A DNA stretch of 64,000 bases, taken from Aureimonas phyllosphaerae (GTDB lineage: Bacteria; Pseudomonadota; Alphaproteobacteria; Rhizobiales; Rhizobiaceae). Positions 1 through 11,232 of this stretch are shown here, in pieces. The position numbers and the translations under genes are program-made. The notes under the pieces are model-generated. The model searched no databases. It was given only the letters and a program-made list of their open reading frames with translations, and was not told the DNA's origin. The DNA lies in NCBI RefSeq assembly GCF_900113065.1, contig NZ_FOOA01000002.1, forward strand, positions 124,001-188,000, in the 5' to 3' direction. Position 1 is the stretch's first letter. Each line of letters starts with the position of its first letter.

Positions 1-198
1 TTCCACACCGGCCAGACCCCGGTGCTGAAGTACAATCGCCAGCTGATGCAAGCGATCCTCCACGATCGCCTGCCGATTGCCGACATCGTCAACGCCAAGA
101 TCATTCCGCTCCACCAAGCCGCTGAAGGCTACGAGACGTTCGATCAGGGCGCGGCCGTGAAATTCGTCCTTGATCCGCACGGTGAACTGGCCGCCTGA
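1..198 (+). CDS. fdhA: Glutathione-independent formaldehyde dehydrogenase, C-terminal end (partial)
   Basis: Only the last 65 codons lie in the window; the gene begins to the left. The visible end (HTGQTPVLKYN near the start, KFVLDPHGEL near the stop) looks like the C-terminus of the zinc-dependent, NAD-linked formaldehyde dehydrogenase FdhA of Pseudomonas. That enzyme oxidises formaldehyde to formate without glutathione. Catalytic zinc ligands are outside the window and cannot be checked. It lies on the same strand as the betaine importer and near gbcAB, whose demethylation pathway releases formaldehyde, so a detoxifying role for the C1 product is likely. Confidence 0.8.
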   Translation, partial: FHTGQTPVLKYNRQLMQAILHDRLPIADIVNAKIIPLHQAAEGYETFDQGAAVKFVLDPHGELAA

Positions 199-657
199 GC
201 GGGTCTCGGCGGGGCGGACGGCTCGACGCCGCTTCGTCTCGCCTTGTTCCTTCGGGCCACTTGCGTCACGCTGCCGCAGACGGAATGATCCGTTCGATCG
301 AAACTGGTCCGGGCCGCCGGGGCCCAACTCCTTCTCCTCCACGGGGATCGAGGAAAGTCGCTTGCCTGATTACAAAATAGCCAGCGTCGATTGATGCGGT
401 GCTGGTGCTCAGTTCGTCGCAATAAATCTATTCAAGCGTCGCAATAGTCCTATTGGTTGCCCCGTGCGCCGATAGTCTCATGGTCGAAGCGGCCGAAGTC
501 GCACCGAGCATCGAGGTGGATTCAGGTCTCCCGCCCTCATCCGTCTCCTTCGTTCGCGGGATCGAGCCCGAGCCGCGATCGGATCAGGACCCCAGCATAT
601 CCCGGCACATGGCGCCGCCGGGTAGGCCCCGTTCTCGCGCCGCAGGAGTATCGACTG
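199..657. other. Non-coding stretch between fdhA and the betaine importer
   Basis: I see no convincing gene in these 459 bases. The region is locally A+T-rich around 368-455 and carries an exact 10-base direct repeat (listed separately), which makes it the probable regulatory region of the importer genes that start at 658. I found no U-tailed terminator hairpin after fdhA. Confidence 0.6.
415..446 (+). promoter_or_regulatory. Candidate AraC-type operator: direct repeat CGTCGCAATA x2
   Basis: CGTCGCAATA occurs at 415-424 and again at 437-446. The copies are exactly 22 bases apart, about two helical turns. AraC-family regulators commonly bind two half-sites spaced this way on one face of the helix. 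A related GTCGCAAAA lies at 5345-5353, between the GbdR-like regulator and gbcA. Assignment to that regulator is inference. Confidence 0.45.
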
Positions 658-1665
658 ATGAAGCATCTCTTGGCATCGACCGTTCTTGCGCTGGCGTTCA
701 GTTCGGTGGGCACCCTCGCCGCTCACGCCGCGGGTGACTGCAGCGAGGTCACCGTGGCTGCGATGAACTGGCAGAGCGCCGAAGTGCTCGCCAGCCTCGA
801 CAAAATCATCCTGGAAAATGGCTACGGCTGCGAAGTCTCGATCATTTCGGGGGATACCGTGCCGACCCTGACGTCGATGGCCGAGCGAGGTCAGCCGGAT
901 ATCGCCCCGGAAGGCTGGGTCGATCTTGTGCCCGAGGTCATCAACCGCGGTCTGGCCGAGAAGAAGCTCGTCGCCACCGGTCACGCCCTGTCCGACGGCG
1001 CGCAGCAAGGGTGGTTCATCCCGAAATACGTCGCGGACGCCCATCCCGACATCAAGACCATCGGCGATGCGCTGAAGCACCCGGAACTCTTCCCGAACCC
1101 GGAGGACTCCAGCAAGGGTGCCGTCTTCAACGGACCGCAGGGATGGGGCGGCACGGTCGTCACCGCGCAGTTCTTCAAGGCTTACGATGCCGCCAACAAG
1201 GGCTTCACGCTGGTCGACACCGGCTCGTCCGCCGGTCTCGACGGATCGATCGCCCGCGCCAACGAGAACAAGCAGGGCTGGCTCGGCTATTACTGGGCCC
1301 CGACTGCGATCCTGGGACGCTATCCGATGGTTCGCCTCGGCTTCGATGCCCCGCACGATGCCGCGGAATGGAAGCGCTGCAACTCCAACGCCGACTGCCC
1401 CGATCCGAAGCTCAATGAATGGGTGGCCGACAACGTCGATACGGTAGTGACCGCCAAGTTTGCCGAGCGCGCGGGCGAGCCGGTGATGACGTATCTCGGC
1501 AAGCGGTCGTGGTCGAACGCGACGGTCAACGAGCTGCTGGCATGGATGACGGACAACCAGGCCAACGGCGACGATGGCGCGAAGCACTTCCTCGAGACCA
1601 AGAAGGACGTCTGGACGAAGTGGGTCACGCCGGAAGCGGCTTCCAAGATCGAGGCGGCTCTCTGA
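658..1665 (+). CDS. Glycine betaine/choline-type ABC transporter, periplasmic substrate-binding protein
   Basis: A 335-residue exported protein of the ProX/OpuAC/ChoX group that binds quaternary amines for an ABC importer. The N-terminus is a signal peptide (MKHLL, hydrophobic core, likely cleaved near AHAAG, residues 22-26). The mature part carries the PDIAPEGWVD and NGPQGWGG stretches seen in this group; the aromatic residues there probably help form the cation-binding site. A cysteine pair (CNSNADC) may form a disulphide. The ATG at 658 is chosen because AGGAG lies 9 bases upstream and a signal peptide follows at once. It heads a three-gene transporter operon. Choline and glycine betaine cannot be told apart by sequence. 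Confidence 0.85.
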   Translation: MKHLLASTVLALAFSSVGTLAAHAAGDCSEVTVAAMNWQSAEVLASLDKIILENGYGCEVSIISGDTVPTLTSMAERGQPDIAPEGWVDLVPEVINRGLAEKKLVATGHALSDGAQQGWFIPKYVADAHPDIKTIGDALKHPELFPNPEDSSKGAVFNGPQGWGGTVVTAQFFKAYDAANKGFTLVDTGSSAGLDGSIARANENKQGWLGYYWAPTAILGRYPMVRLGFDAPHDAAEWKRCNSNADCPDPKLNEWVADNVDTVVTAKFAERAGEPVMTYLGKRSWSNATVNELLAWMTDNQANGDDGAKHFLETKKDVWTKWVTPEAASKIEAAL

Positions 1666-5456: not shown

Positions 5457-6713
5457 ATGCTCAACAAGTTGGATACGCTGGAGTCTTTGGTCCTGGGGCG
5501 CCGCCTCGGACACAGCCTCGACGCGCCCTTCTACACCTCGCCGGAGGTGTTCGCGGCGGATATGGAAGCGATCTTCTACCGCCACTGGATCTATGTCGGC
5601 GTCGAGCCCGACGTGTCCGAGCCCGGCGACGTCGCGACGGTCGAAATCGGCAAGGCGTCGATCCTCATCGTTCGCGACGACGACAATGAGGTTCGCGCCT
5701 TCTTCAATGTTTGCCGGCACCGCGGCGCCCGTCTCGTGGACGAAGAGAAGACGACGGTGGGCAACCTCGTCTGCCGCTATCACTCCTGGACCTACGGTCT
5801 CGACGGTCATCTCGTGCATGCGCCGCACATGGGGTCGGACTTCGATCCATCCTGCAAGGGATTGAAGCCGGTCAATCTCCGCTCGCTGGAGGGGCTGCTC
5901 TTCGTCTGCCTCGCGGACAACCCGCCTGAGGACTTCGACCAGCTCGCCGCCCGCATGGCGCCCTACATCGCACCTCACAACGTGCGCGGCACCAAGATCG
6001 CCTACCAGAGCGATCTGATCGAAATGGGCAACTGGAAGCTGACGCTCGAGAACAATCGCGAGTGCTACCACTGCGAGGCCAATCATCCCGAGTTGACGGT
6101 CCCGCTTTTCGCCTACGGCTTCGGCTTCTCTCCGGAGGAAATGGACCCGATCGATTTGGAGAATGCTCAGCGCTACGACGCGCTGCGGGCGACAAGCCAT
6201 GACGAGTGGGAGAAGATGGGCCTCCCCTCGCGCGAGATCGAGGAACTCGACACCCGCGTCAGCGGCTTCCGCACCGAGCGACTGCCGCTCGACGGCGATG
6301 GCGAGAGCCACACGATGGACACGCGGGCGGCGTGCAGCGTCCCGCTTGGGCGCTTCAGCACCGCCAAACTTGGCGGCCTGTCCTTCTGGACGCAACCGAA
6401 TTCCTGGCATCATTTCCTCGGCGACCACATCGTCACCTTCTCGGTCCTGCCGCTCGATGAAGGACGCACGCTGGTCCGCACGAAATGGCTGGTCAACGAG
6501 GACGCGGTCGAGGGCGTGGACTACGAGATCGATCGGCTGATCGAGGTCTGGACCGCGACCAACGCGCAGGATGCAGCTCTTGTCGAGATGTGCCAGCAGG
6601 GCGCGCTCAGCCCTGCCTACGAGCCCGGCCCCTATTCGCCCAATACCGAAATGCTCGTGGAGAAATTCATCCGTTGGTACGTCGCCCGCATGACGGACTA
6701 CATCACGAAATGA
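5457..6713 (+). CDS. gbcA: Glycine betaine monooxygenase, Rieske oxygenase subunit
   Basis: A 418-residue Rieske-type aromatic-ring-hydroxylase-family protein that would demethylate glycine betaine to dimethylglycine plus formaldehyde. The Rieske [2Fe-2S] ligands are C86/H88 (NVCRHRGARL) and C106/H109 (CRYHSWTY). The mononuclear iron site lies in ENNRECYHCEANHPEL (H205, H210). The C-terminal NQxD/PGPYSPNTE region closely resembles Pseudomonas GbcA as I remember it. It overlaps gbcB by ATGA and diverges from the GbdR-like regulator. Carnitine and proline-betaine demethylases are related, but the neighbouring importer, regulator and formaldehyde dehydrogenase favour glycine betaine. Confidence 0.85.
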   Translation: MLNKLDTLESLVLGRRLGHSLDAPFYTSPEVFAADMEAIFYRHWIYVGVEPDVSEPGDVATVEIGKASILIVRDDDNEVRAFFNVCRHRGARLVDEEKTTVGNLVCRYHSWTYGLDGHLVHAPHMGSDFDPSCKGLKPVNLRSLEGLLFVCLADNPPEDFDQLAARMAPYIAPHNVRGTKIAYQSDLIEMGNWKLTLENNRECYHCEANHPELTVPLFAYGFGFSPEEMDPIDLENAQRYDALRATSHDEWEKMGLPSREIEELDTRVSGFRTERLPLDGDGESHTMDTRAACSVPLGRFSTAKLGGLSFWTQPNSWHHFLGDHIVTFSVLPLDEGRTLVRTKWLVNEDAVEGVDYEIDRLIEVWTATNAQDAALVEMCQQGALSPAYEPGPYSPNTEMLVEKFIRWYVARMTDYITK

Positions 6714-7840
6714 GCGAGGCCGCGGGTGGAGGCAATTCGGGTTCGGCCTCGATCGAGCTCGCCGACGGGCTGTGGGACAGCGAGGCGGACGATACTCTCG
6801 TCTGCCAGGCGGTGCGCGATGAGACCCATGACGTCAAGACGTTCGTCCTGAAGCCGGCGGCGCCAGGCCGCTTCCGTTTCAAGCCGGGTCAGTTCATGAC
6901 CTACGCCTTCGAGATCGATGGCGAAACCATCTATCGCTGCTACACGATCTCTTCGGCTCCGACGCGTCCCGACCGCATCAGCTTCACGGTCAAGCGGGTT
7001 CCGGGCGGGCCGGTCTCGAATTGGCTGCACGACAGCTTCAAGCCCGGTATGCGCATTCGTGCTGTCGGCCCGATGGGTGACTTCACCTGCGCCGATCTGC
7101 CCGCCTCCAAGTACCTTTTCCTCTCCGGCGGCAGCGGCATCACGCCGTTGATGTCGATGGCGCGAACATTCCACGATCTCGGGCAGCGAGAAGACATCGT
7201 CTTCATCCACAACGCGCGATCGCCCGCCGACATCATCTTTCGCGAGGAACTGGAGGGAATGGCGCGCGTCGACGACGCCTTCCGCTTCGTTCCGATCGTC
7301 CAGAACGTGTCCCCGCTCGCTCCGTCGAGCGGGCTGAGAGGCTTCCTCACGCGCGGCATTCTCGATGTCGTCGTGCCTGATTTCCGCGAGCGCGAGGTCT
7401 TTGTCTGCGGTCCGGCCCCGTACCTGGCGGCCGTAAAGGCGATCCTGGCCGAAGCCGGCTACGAGATGGCGCGCTACCACGACGAGAGCTTCAACTTCGA
7501 GACGCTGACGGCGTCGGAGAAGGCAGTCGCGACCGAGGCCGAGCTACAACTGGAAACGGAAGCCGGGCCCACGGTCCGGACCTATACGGTCGAGTTCACG
7601 AAGACGCGGCGCAGCGTCGAGGTCCCGGAGACCATGACCGTGCTCGAGGCGGCCAAGCGAGCGGGCATGCGGCTGCCGTCATCCTGCTCGAAGGGGATGT
7701 GCGGCACGTGCAAATCGAAAAAGGTCTCGGGGACGGTCGCGATGACGCATCAGGGCGGCATCCGACAACGCGAGATCGATGCGGGCATGGTGCTCTTGTG
7801 TTGCTCCAAGCCGAACAGCGATTTGGTGATCGAACGCTGA
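6710..7840 (+). CDS. gbcB: Glycine betaine monooxygenase, ferredoxin-NAD(P)H reductase subunit
   Basis: A 376-residue electron-transfer partner of GbcA. An FAD-binding ferredoxin-reductase domain comes first (RCYTISS near residues 76-82), then an NAD(P)-binding domain (LSGGSGITPLMSM near residues 138-150). A C-terminal plant-type [2Fe-2S] ferredoxin follows, with cysteines at about C326, C331, C334 and C364/365 (CSKGMCGTC). It carries electrons from NADH through FAD and 2Fe-2S to the Rieske centre. The start at 6710 gives a 4-base ATGA overlap with gbcA, implying coupled translation. The gene converges on the ROK-type kinase. Confidence 0.85.
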   Translation: MSEAAGGGNSGSASIELADGLWDSEADDTLVCQAVRDETHDVKTFVLKPAAPGRFRFKPGQFMTYAFEIDGETIYRCYTISSAPTRPDRISFTVKRVPGGPVSNWLHDSFKPGMRIRAVGPMGDFTCADLPASKYLFLSGGSGITPLMSMARTFHDLGQREDIVFIHNARSPADIIFREELEGMARVDDAFRFVPIVQNVSPLAPSSGLRGFLTRGILDVVVPDFREREVFVCGPAPYLAAVKAILAEAGYEMARYHDESFNFETLTASEKAVATEAELQLETEAGPTVRTYTVEFTKTRRSVEVPETMTVLEAAKRAGMRLPSSCSKGMCGTCKSKKVSGTVAMTHQGGIRQREIDAGMVLLCCSKPNSDLVIER

Positions 7841-7873: not shown

Positions 7874-8920
7874 TTACCGATTGACGAAGCTGCAGTTGCC
7901 GAGCCCGGTCCCCATCGTGACGGCAGCCCAGCGCTCGACATCCTTCATCCGGGGCCATTCGCTCAGCGCCTGAATCACCGCGTCGTTGTGAAGCGCCACG
8001 ATTTTTTCGCGTATGTCCTTCTGTTTCAGGCGGTCATCGATTTCCTGCGGTAGCGAGAAGGACGGATCGCACCACGCGCCCGGCAGGTTCTGGCAGCCGT
8101 CCGAGAATTTGCCGTCGGAGCGCATCACGCCTGGGCAAGAGATACCGATGAGCGCTGAAAGATGCAGCCCGTCCTGCTCGGCCCGGCGCGACATCTCGGC
8201 GATGCCGTCGACCAGTCGGTCCAGAAGAGCCTCGCGATCGACACCCTCCTCGGCGTGGCCCCACTTCTGGTGGTGAACGACTTCCGGCTCGGCTGACGAC
8301 GCCGGCGCGCCATTGTGGCGAACGGTGCTCCAGCGGATGTTGGTTCCACCGATGTCGACAGCAACGAAGCCTGGGGCCTCCTGGATGACGGACGAAGGGG
8401 CCGCGTAGGCCCAGCCGATCATTCCGGCCTCGTCGGGGGCATGATGCAGTCGGCTGAGCGGAACGGGCTTTCCGCCTTCTTGCAGAAGCCGTGTCGTCCG
8501 CTCGACGATTTCAGCCCCGACCAAGCCTTCCATCAAACCGCCGCCGCAGGCGATCCGTTGTGTTCCCTCCCAGTCGGCCGTGTCGAGAAACCGGACCAGA
8601 ACATCGGCCAGATGTCGGGAGAAGGTTTGGATCGCCTGATCGATGATTCGCCCCTCGGGCGTTGTCGCCCGCTCCAATAGCGCGGCATCGAGTTCGTCGC
8701 CCCCGATCTCGTGAGTTCGATCGTGCCCGAATGGAGGCGCTCCGCGAACTTCGATCCTGTGCCTTTCTTCCCGCAGAAGCTCACGGAACCGCGAACCGCT
8801 GGCCAAGTCGCCGAGGAAGGCATTGCCGGCTTGCAACGGAAGACTGTGTCCCCTGACCTCGACGAGCGGCAGCGTCTCGCCGCCGTGGCGAATTGCCGGA
8901 CTATCCGGGATCACGTTCAT
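7874..8920 (-). CDS. ROK-family sugar kinase-like protein with circularly permuted motif order
   Basis: A 348-residue protein whose parts match ROK/glucokinase folds but in rearranged order. Residues 75-172 look like the C-terminal half of a ROK kinase: a long helix (DQAIQTFSRHLADVLVRFL), IACGGGLMEG (124-132), then DEAGMIGWAY (163-172). Only afterwards comes the phosphate-binding VAVDIGGTNIRW (187-197), then GISCPG, the catalytic HNDA (311-314) and, as the very last residues, MGTGLGNCSFVNR. In standard ROK proteins DxGGT is N-terminal and GGG is C-terminal. An in-frame stop codon lies directly before the start ATG, so an upstream standard N-terminus is excluded. The substrate is unknown. It abuts the betaine island but shows no clear link to it. 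Confidence 0.7.
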   Translation of the reverse strand: MNVIPDSPAIRHGGETLPLVEVRGHSLPLQAGNAFLGDLASGSRFRELLREERHRIEVRGAPPFGHDRTHEIGGDELDAALLERATTPEGRIIDQAIQTFSRHLADVLVRFLDTADWEGTQRIACGGGLMEGLVGAEIVERTTRLLQEGGKPVPLSRLHHAPDEAGMIGWAYAAPSSVIQEAPGFVAVDIGGTNIRWSTVRHNGAPASSAEPEVVHHQKWGHAEEGVDREALLDRLVDGIAEMSRRAEQDGLHLSALIGISCPGVMRSDGKFSDGCQNLPGAWCDPSFSLPQEIDDRLKQKDIREKIVALHNDAVIQALSEWPRMKDVERWAAVTMGTGLGNCSFVNR

Positions 8921-9267: not shown

Positions 9268-9343
9268 TGGCGACCCCGGCAGGATTCGAACCTGCGACCA
9301 TCGGCTTAGAAGGCCGGTGCTCTATCCTCTGAGCTACGGGGCC
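9268..9343 (-). tRNA. tRNA-Arg (anticodon TCT)
   Basis: The reverse complement folds into a standard 76-base cloverleaf. The acceptor stem is GGCCCCG/CGGGGTC, the D stem is GCTC/GAGC, the anticodon loop is CTTCTAA and the T arm is GCAGG-TTCGAAT-CCTGC. Discriminator G and an encoded CCA follow. The anticodon TCT reads AGA/AGG arginine codons. The base of the anticodon stem has one C-A mismatch. Confidence 0.95.
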
Positions 9344-9709: not shown

Positions 9710-9786
<77 letters not shown>

Positions 9787-9871: not shown

Positions 9872-10330
9872 TTAGCGTCCCTTGATCAAGGAATGCTCGA
9901 GTTTATCGCCCGCCTTCGCGCCATACGTCGCTGCTGCGCCGCCGTTGATTTCGACAACGAAGCGTACGGTCTTCCCAGACGGGATCGTTTCCAGCGAATG
10001 CGGCTTCGCGTTGCGCGCGATTCGCACGATCGTCCCGTCCTTGTCGACGAACAGCATGTCGAGCGGGATGAGCGTGTTCTTCATCCACATGCTGACGGGA
10101 CGGCTTTCGCGAAAATCGAACAGCATGCCGGTGCCCTCCGCAAGGGACTCGCGATTCATCAGGCCGATCTCGCGCTCCGATGGCGTGTCGGCGACCTCGA
10201 CCTCGATCGCGTGTGCTCCCGTTTCGGTTATCAAGGTTGCCGTATCGGCAAACGCGGCGGATGCGAGCATCAGGACCATCGCAGCGGCCGCTCCGCCAAC
10301 CTGTGCTGCCCTTGCGAAGAACGTCGACAT
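9872..10330 (-). CDS. DUF192 family exported protein
   Basis: A 152-residue protein of the DUF192 (COG1430) family, whose biochemical role is not established. It has an N-terminal signal peptide or membrane anchor (about residues 1-29, ending near ASAAFAD). Family motifs follow: SEREIGLMNRESLAEGTGMLFDF, VSMWMKNTLIPLDMLFVD and an IVEING-like VVEINGG. Its ATG shares one base with the stop codon of the upstream twin cold-shock gene (TGATG), so the two are almost certainly co-translated. Confidence 0.85.
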   Translation of the reverse strand: MSTFFARAAQVGGAAAAMVLMLASAAFADTATLITETGAHAIEVEVADTPSEREIGLMNRESLAEGTGMLFDFRESRPVSMWMKNTLIPLDMLFVDKDGTIVRIARNAKPHSLETIPSGKTVRFVVEINGGAAATYGAKAGDKLEHSLIKGR

Positions 10331-10905
10331 CAGTGGGCTCCCGGCCGGACGGGCCCGGTCAAGGGGTGGATTTCCGCCGCCATGAGACCCTTGTCGCCGT
10401 TGCCGTATCGCACGAGCACCTCCTGCCCCGGCCGGAGTTCCGCCATGCCGTAGCGACGCAGCGTCTCCATATGGACAAAAATATCTTCGGTGTCCTCCCC
10501 GCGCGAAATGAAGCCGTAGCCCTTGCTGCGGTTGAACCACTTGACAGAGGCCCGTTCCAGATCGCTCGTGGGTACCACCTGCACATGGGTACGGGCTGCC
10601 GCCGTCTGGGCCGGTGCGACGGCAGTGGAGGTATCCATGCTGAGCACACGGAAAGCCTGAAGGCCGCGCTCGCCACGCTGGATCTCGCACACGACCGTCG
10701 CGCCCTCGAGGGCGGTGGAGAAGCCGTCGCGGCGCAGACAGGTGACATGCAGAAGCACATCGTCGCCGCCTCCGTCCGGAACCACGAAGCCGAACCCTTT
10801 GGCGACATCGAACCACTTGATCCTGCCGGTGACGGTTTCGAGATCGAGCGGCCGCGTCGAACCGTCAGCTTCATGATCCATCGCGCTGGGTGCACGCACT
10901 GTCAT
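10330..10905 (-). CDS. Twin cold-shock-domain nucleic-acid-binding protein
   Basis: A 191-residue protein with two cold-shock (CSD, OB-fold) domains. The first has [14 protein letters not shown] and VLLHV as RNP motifs; the second has [14 protein letters not shown] and DIFVHM. A linker of about 30 alanine/threonine-rich residues joins them. Single-domain CspA proteins are about 70 residues, so this is a duplicated form. It should bind single-stranded RNA or DNA in the cytoplasm. I chose the ATG at 10905, with GAGGCGGA upstream. A GTG at 10929 and an ATG at 10881 are alternatives. Confidence 0.85.
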
Positions 10906-11232
10906 CGAACGTTCCGCCTCGTTCGTCACTTACGCCCGCCGCGAAGACGGCCTGACGCCGACCGTTCCAACATTCGTGCAGGACGCGTCAGCATTCGCGA
11001 TCCGTCACCATTCGTCAAACGATCACCTGAGTTTTCAGAATAGTTTGAATAGTGAGTTTGGGAATCCTCAAGCGCCCCGTTTTTCCCGTTCCGCGCAAAA
11101 AACATCGCCCGGACCCCGTGCCGCAAGCTTCGCAAAAAGTCGCAGACGTAGTGGCTGTTCCAATGGGTCGCACATTGGCGGATCGCTTCGTGCCCCTAAG
11201 TCGCAACGGAACGACGTTCTGAGCAGGATCCC
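10906..11232. other. Non-coding stretch between twin cold-shock gene and gloA
   Basis: No gene is supported. The region holds a 17-base-period imperfect tandem repeat (listed separately) close to the cold-shock gene start and an A+T-rich part around 11028-11065. It must contain the divergent promoters of both genes. Confidence 0.55.
10986..11014. repeat. Two near-identical 12-mers at 17-base period
   Basis: CGTCAGCATTCG (10986-10997) and CGTCACCATTCG (11003-11014) differ at one base. A further CATTCG lies at 10971-10976. All are upstream of the minus-strand twin cold-shock gene, so they could be regulator half-sites. Confidence 0.5.

Follow-up and report, generated by a model that had tools for sequence, protein, structure and literature searches.

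In ordinary members of the ROK family (PF00480), which includes glucokinase, NagK, NanK and fructokinase, the motifs follow one another in the order DxGGT, ND, GTGxG and GGG. In NagK (PMC10031466), S78, N104, D105, E154, H157 and D187 hold the sugar, H157 is in addition a ligand of the structural zinc, and the N terminus together with the C-terminal helix makes up the small domain. The tandem hexokinases I and II of vertebrates possess two complete kinase units, and their repeat offers a C-terminal half followed by an N-terminal half. No description of a permuted ROK kinase, or of any permuted sugar kinase of the hexokinase fold, was found in the open-access literature; a prior description elsewhere is possible. 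The main text of a 2025 superfamily review (PMC12696579) does not contain the string 'permut'. On the basis of this literature, the protein reported here is an apparently undescribed variant of an already known kinase family.

The window analyzed is a 64,000-nucleotide stretch of the Aureimonas phyllosphaerae genome (contig NZ_FOOA01000002.1, positions 124,001 to 188,000). A preliminary description made from its sequence had reported a 348-codon frame encoding a ROK-type kinase with circularly permuted motifs. The frame is real and every motif position given for it was exact in the translation; the in-frame stop said to directly precede the ATG is a TGA codon, and the strand, which had been left unstated, was found to be minus. 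We regard the product as very probably a natural circular permutant, fixed long ago, of a sugar kinase of the ROK family with the hexokinase fold. Its features are listed below, with conservation counted in the 47-row alignment of permuted proteins that also served as the family profile.

7874..8920, minus strand: circularly permuted ROK-kinase gene, ATG start at 8920, 348 codons plus stop
8378..8920, minus strand: residues 1-181, corresponding to the C-terminal half of an ordinary ROK protein (remainder of the large domain, GGG motif, DEAGMIG)
7877..8377, minus strand: residues 182-348, corresponding to the N-terminal half of an ordinary ROK protein (DIGGTN, QNLPGxW, HND, GTGLG)
8525..8545, minus strand: GGGLMEG, residues 126-132, with G126-G128 in 47/47 rows
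8339..8356, minus strand: DIGGTN, residues 189-194, phosphate-binding motif, from the translation
7982..7990, minus strand: HND, residues 311-313, in 47/47 rows
7898..7912, minus strand: GTGLG, residues 337-341, ending seven residues from the C terminus, in 47/47 rows

The DEAGMIG motif occupies residues 163-169, and GTGLG is directly followed by NCSFVNR and the stop codon. As computed, the chain starts just after the position of the ordinary ROK GTGxG, traverses the remainder of the large domain (GGG, D-x-A-G-x-I-G), leads straight into the DxGGT small domain and finishes with ND and GTGxG. The protein has the DxGGT, NLPGxW, ND, GTGxG, GGG and DxAGxIG motifs in common with the ROK family and is likewise predicted to adopt the hexokinase fold. 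It differs from that family in its swapped halves, in its lack of the zinc signature, in that no conserved E-x-G-H was found and in its termini, which would lie in the large domain.

Distribution of the swapped order

A search of 41 related genomes gave matches in ten (E <= 0.001), nine of them in the same genus, including the genome of the window itself. The swapped order was present in relatives of 36-73% identity from separate assemblies. An eleventh candidate (L011), a 178-aa frame with 31% identity over residues 56-202, lacks the ROK motifs and was dropped. A contig pattern scan with a ten-member alignment returned at least 542 coding stretches among at least 595 matches, some of which may be ordinary ROK genes. 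The swapped order was found in all 80 relatives kept from these, with the match extending from residue 12 or earlier to residue 347 or later, in a set that is biased to full length because the best-scoring 80 of the at least 542 were taken. These relatives come from records named Aureimonas, Variovorax and its relatives, Hyphomicrobium, Shinella and others, with one record named Achromobacter and one named Peristeroidobacter, which we take to be a gammaproteobacterium.

Within the class, 16 of 385 sampled genomes matched at E <= 1e-10, and an in-frame stop occurs in two of the 17 match rows. When 398 genomes of the phylum were searched with the rotated profile, scoring up to five candidates per genome, 27 genomes matched. 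Both halves were detected in 22 of these, and the ROK C-terminal half lay upstream of the N-terminal half at all of their 24 loci. The remaining five gave a weak match to the N-terminal half only (E 1.1e-11 to 7.1e-8), and two of these matches (G065 and G080) lie on full-length ordinary ROK genes. No unpermuted sister was identified among these 398 genomes of one phylum with at most five candidates per genome, and given that scope a rare one is not excluded. Across 126 loci, not all of them independent, there was invariably a single first half ahead of a single second half, and half profiles (E <= 1e-3) detected no tandem copies or remnants in the flanks of any of them, often 1.5 to 6 kb. The homologue survey suggested in the preliminary description thus showed the permuted order at every locus where both halves were detected.

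The preliminary description also expected similar proteins in rhizobial genomes, and these were found, plasmid records included. Out of 72,556 plasmid records, 205 matched the permuted protein, in 197 of them at a single site that spans at least 80% of it; among 40 of the 205 matches that were listed, 38 are one unbroken piece, 14 are annotated 'ROK family protein', one is annotated 'glucokinase' and the rest show no annotation. That an assembly error or a recent local rearrangement swapped the halves of an ordinary ROK gene, a refutation anticipated from the start and on one window alone indistinguishable from a true swap, is extremely improbable, since homologues from separate assemblies have the same order, as do the 24 loci of the phylum sample, and the listed plasmid matches are nearly all unbroken. 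Because the same swap is present in the close relatives examined, which come from other soil bacteria, we consider it a real natural rearrangement.

The dN/dS ratio (Nei-Gojobori) was about 0.12-0.28 in five of six pairs (dN/dS values of 0.20/1.29, 0.31/1.10, 0.09/0.35, 0.10/0.85 and 0.16/0.77), with the sixth (0.39/1.54) near saturation, and these five ratios indicate purifying selection on the permuted gene. The swap would likely have arisen from a tandem duplication whose outer halves were later lost; no intermediate was encountered.

Profile and structural comparison of the two halves

The comparison initially proposed, in which native and rotated sequences are scored against the Pfam ROK model, was hardly discriminating. 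The native protein scored 31.7 bits (cut-off 22.9) in two stretches and the rotated single sequence scored 32.2 bits; the plain Pfam score barely separates the two orders because HMMER sums separate stretches. An identical scan of four relatives placed three (L002, L008 and L010) above the cut-off and one (L006, 16.7 bits) below it. A PF00480 search of the window's own genome gave seven rows, all ordinary ROK, and the window gene was absent among them.

Rotation at the profile-profile level did support the permutation. An ordinary-ROK profile was prepared from 35 loci, of which 30 gave usable frames; the other five were left out for want of a frame with a DxGGT-type motif spanning the match. 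In hhalign comparisons of the 47-row family profile with these 30 sequences, the native order splits, residues 181-342 matching ROK columns 1-140 (score 78.7) and residues 70-175 matching columns 205-302 (score 49.8). Rotation at residue 182 merged these into one collinear alignment that spans 284 columns and scores 109.0 (E 8.8e-15), and with decoy cuts at residues 90 and 270 the match remained split. A scan of cut points reached its maximum (109.0-109.8) at residues 176-185, with scores of 58.7-104.4 elsewhere (104.4 at 173, 98.8 at 169-170 and 83.1 at 193). The equivalent of the ROK C-terminal half covers roughly residues 15-175, and that of the N-terminal half covers residues 183-348.

An AlphaFold (AF2) model of the protein was obtained with a pLDDT of 91.3 and a pTM of 0.90, with a mean pLDDT of 42 over residues 1-10. 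Such a prediction had been suggested earlier, and in VIA-align comparisons the model's two halves land on opposite halves of ROK structures. The polyphosphate/ATP glucomannokinase 1woq, to whose chain 11..161 model residues 182..348 align, has the ordinary order. The top nine Foldseek rows for the whole model are tandem hexokinases (for example, 2nzt_A 291..668 on model 37..324), whose repeat resembles the permuted order. These rows were rejected as proof of permutation, the rmsd of 28-37 Å indicating that they are not one rigid superposition. The group A glucokinases (PF02685) have weak N-lobe similarity, with an E of 0.057 for the half and 0.17 for the rotated protein, and the organism's own genome contains a separate full-length PF02685 gene.

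It is very unlikely that the protein is instead a ROK N-terminal lobe fused behind an unrelated N-terminal domain, with the C-terminal lobe truly lost. Such a fusion would agree with searches of residues 1-181 alone, which found no Pfam family, no significant match among PDB sequences (a t-SNARE row returned by hmmsearch is spurious) and, for the model of this segment, no significant Foldseek row (best E 0.028). For this reason the assignment of the first half rests on the profile-profile and VIA-align comparisons. Both contradict the fusion: the first half scored 49.6 against the ROK columns, a value that none of 100 column shuffles reached (maximum 31.3), and the best VIA-align rows for the folded first half are ROK proteins. 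The GGG and D-x-A-G-x-I-G motifs are retained as well. An unrelated domain in residues 1-180 had been named in advance as grounds for abandoning the permutation, and what was found there is a match to the ROK C-terminal half. With both halves matching ROK at the profile level and no shuffle equalling the real score, the motif match exceeds chance. A rotated six-row profile matched 5nck weakly, in three stretches that follow the ordinary order, with a whole-chain E of 0.00021. The circularly permuted ROK protein first proposed is upheld by the rotation tests, the half-by-half structure comparison and the swapped order of all relatives examined.

Active site, gene neighbourhood and function

Analysis of the 47 rows demonstrated that D189, G191 and N194 are present in all of them, G192 in 46 and T193 in 45. 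Residues H311, N312, D313 and G337-N342, residues G126-G128, D163 and G169, and residues Q277, N278, P280, G281 and W283 of the QNLPGxW motif are identical throughout. By analogy with N104 and D105 of NagK (PMC10031466), N312 and D313 would be the ND pair and D313 the catalytic aspartate. The ROK zinc signature C-x-C-G-x2-G-C occurs in none of the 47 permuted rows; it was found in 28 of the 30 ordinary ROK frames and is not universal there either. The glucomannokinase 1woq presumably also lacks it. The proposal that an ordinary ROK protein was cut after GTGLG and rejoined therefore holds for the swapped order but not as a simple rejoining.

Ordinary ROK proteins have the sugar/zinc motif E-x-G-H after GTGxG. 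From the hhalign alignment and secondary structure, no conserved E-x-G-H, and no counterpart of E154 or H157 of NagK, could be placed in the 47 rows; residues 13-60 contain no conserved histidine column and no glutamate column above 31 of 47. H12 is present in all 47 rows and D38 is an aspartate in 46 and a glutamate in one, and these residues near the new N terminus are candidates to replace the E-x-G-H role. The catalytic core seems to be kept, and the sugar pocket appears altered close to the cut. Since the zinc signature and a recognisable E-x-G-H are missing beside the new termini, a rebuilt sugar pocket is suggested, and the substrate may therefore differ from those of known ROK kinases. 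For the same reasons sugar-kinase activity is not assured. The protein is most likely an ATP-dependent hexose kinase. Judged by the published NagK layout, both termini would have been relocated to the large domain from the small, mobile one, which would now form a single uninterrupted segment. The protein would still close over the sugar and transfer the gamma-phosphate of ATP, with D313 as the base and D189 at the metal/phosphate site.

In the window, a gbcA/gbcB-like pair of glycine betaine monooxygenase genes (5457-6713 and 6707-7840, plus strand) lies convergent with the permuted ROK gene, and an operon of these genes with the kinase was rejected on account of this orientation. The pair's best NCBIfam matches are NF058607 at 419 bits against a cut-off of 670 and NF058606 at 385 bits against one of 500; because both scores are under the curated cut-offs, the pair perhaps acts on another substrate. 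A frame of the same ORF cluster adjoins the permuted gene in four of seven other Aureimonas loci (L019-L024 and L097). Upstream of the kinase gene are tRNA-Arg (tct, 9268-9343) and tRNA-Pro (tgg, 9710-9786), both on the minus strand, and the mechanical ORFs across them are unlikely genes. A 199-aa protein (10330-10929, minus strand) contains two cold-shock domains, CspE-like at 32-96 and CspD-like at 126-190.

Neighbourhoods elsewhere are varied. In one Hyphomicrobium MAG (L093) a GH15 trehalase gene, otsA, pfkB, otsB and the permuted ROK gene follow one another on one strand, with about 600 bases from the otsB frame to the conserved kinase start. At three more Hyphomicrobium loci, otsB and pfkB lie on the kinase strand, about 4-5 kb upstream. 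Plasmid loci of Rhizobium, Shinella and a record bearing the name Roseateles (L187, L188, L102 and L104) have otsB head-to-head with the permuted gene at a distance of 108-143 bp; one such otsB carries the annotation haloacid dehalogenase and shares 54% identity with its counterpart at another such locus. The other neighbours of this pair differ between Rhizobium and Shinella and are partly common within each group. At least 80% of the pair is covered in 112 of 221 matching plasmid records. The organism name of the Roseateles record (Betaproteobacteria; NZ_CP084753.1, L104), which is flagged UNVERIFIED_ORG, may be wrong; like the Shinella locus L083, this record has the kinase gene together with otsB and a PPC-domain gene, the latter two with 80% and 84% identity, respectively.

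At 50 of 106 loci, mostly in records named Variovorax and relatives, a glycine-betaine-type ABC transporter gene (OpuAC domain) is opposite the kinase, at 157-4333 bases from its matched start; this link is mainly that of one clade. Within the examined flanks otsB was present in only eight of the 106 loci, and some loci have neither gene beside the kinase. No trehalose gene lies beside the window's own kinase gene, and otsA and otsB are on another contig. Nothing linking trehalose or otsB to the ROK family was found in the open-access literature. The gene neighbours point to a hexose or compatible-solute (trehalose or betaine) role, most simply glucose phosphorylation, and this is a lead, not a result, because few loci have otsB, some have neither gene, the organism's own otsA and otsB are elsewhere and it has a separate glucokinase.

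A protein that retains the permuted ROK fold and now functions as a sugar sensor or regulator, or phosphorylates a non-hexose, is unlikely, although the zinc signature and E-x-G-H not found in the 47 rows, the varied neighbourhoods and the separate glucokinase would all suit it. The identity of N312-D313, D189, Q277-N278, P280-G281, W283 and G337-N342 in every row fits retained catalysis, as far as sequence can indicate. In addition, only about 12 residues precede the ROK-like part, too few for the N-terminal DNA-binding domain of the ROK repressors (NagC/Mlc type); unlike those repressors, the protein has no Pfam HTH match, and an in-frame stop stands before its ATG. Returning to the permuted kinase, we tentatively raise the possibility that it represents a distinct subfamily, in which permutation at the sugar/zinc loop rebuilt the pocket, so that the kinase serves osmolyte metabolism with a new substrate, such as a disaccharide or one derived from trehalose, or under new regulation, with trehalose-phosphate phosphatase or a betaine transporter as the partner, depending on lineage.

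Some of the genes labelled 'ROK family protein' or 'glucokinase' belong to a separate family, whose substrate should not be assumed from those names. The permutation favoured here would mean that a hinge-bending sugar kinase had both of its termini relocated in nature and kept its catalytic motifs, and that the swap became fixed in many Alpha- and Betaproteobacteria and in at least one record named Peristeroidobacter. With such a protein, the part that chain connectivity plays in domain closure of the hexokinase type becomes directly testable.
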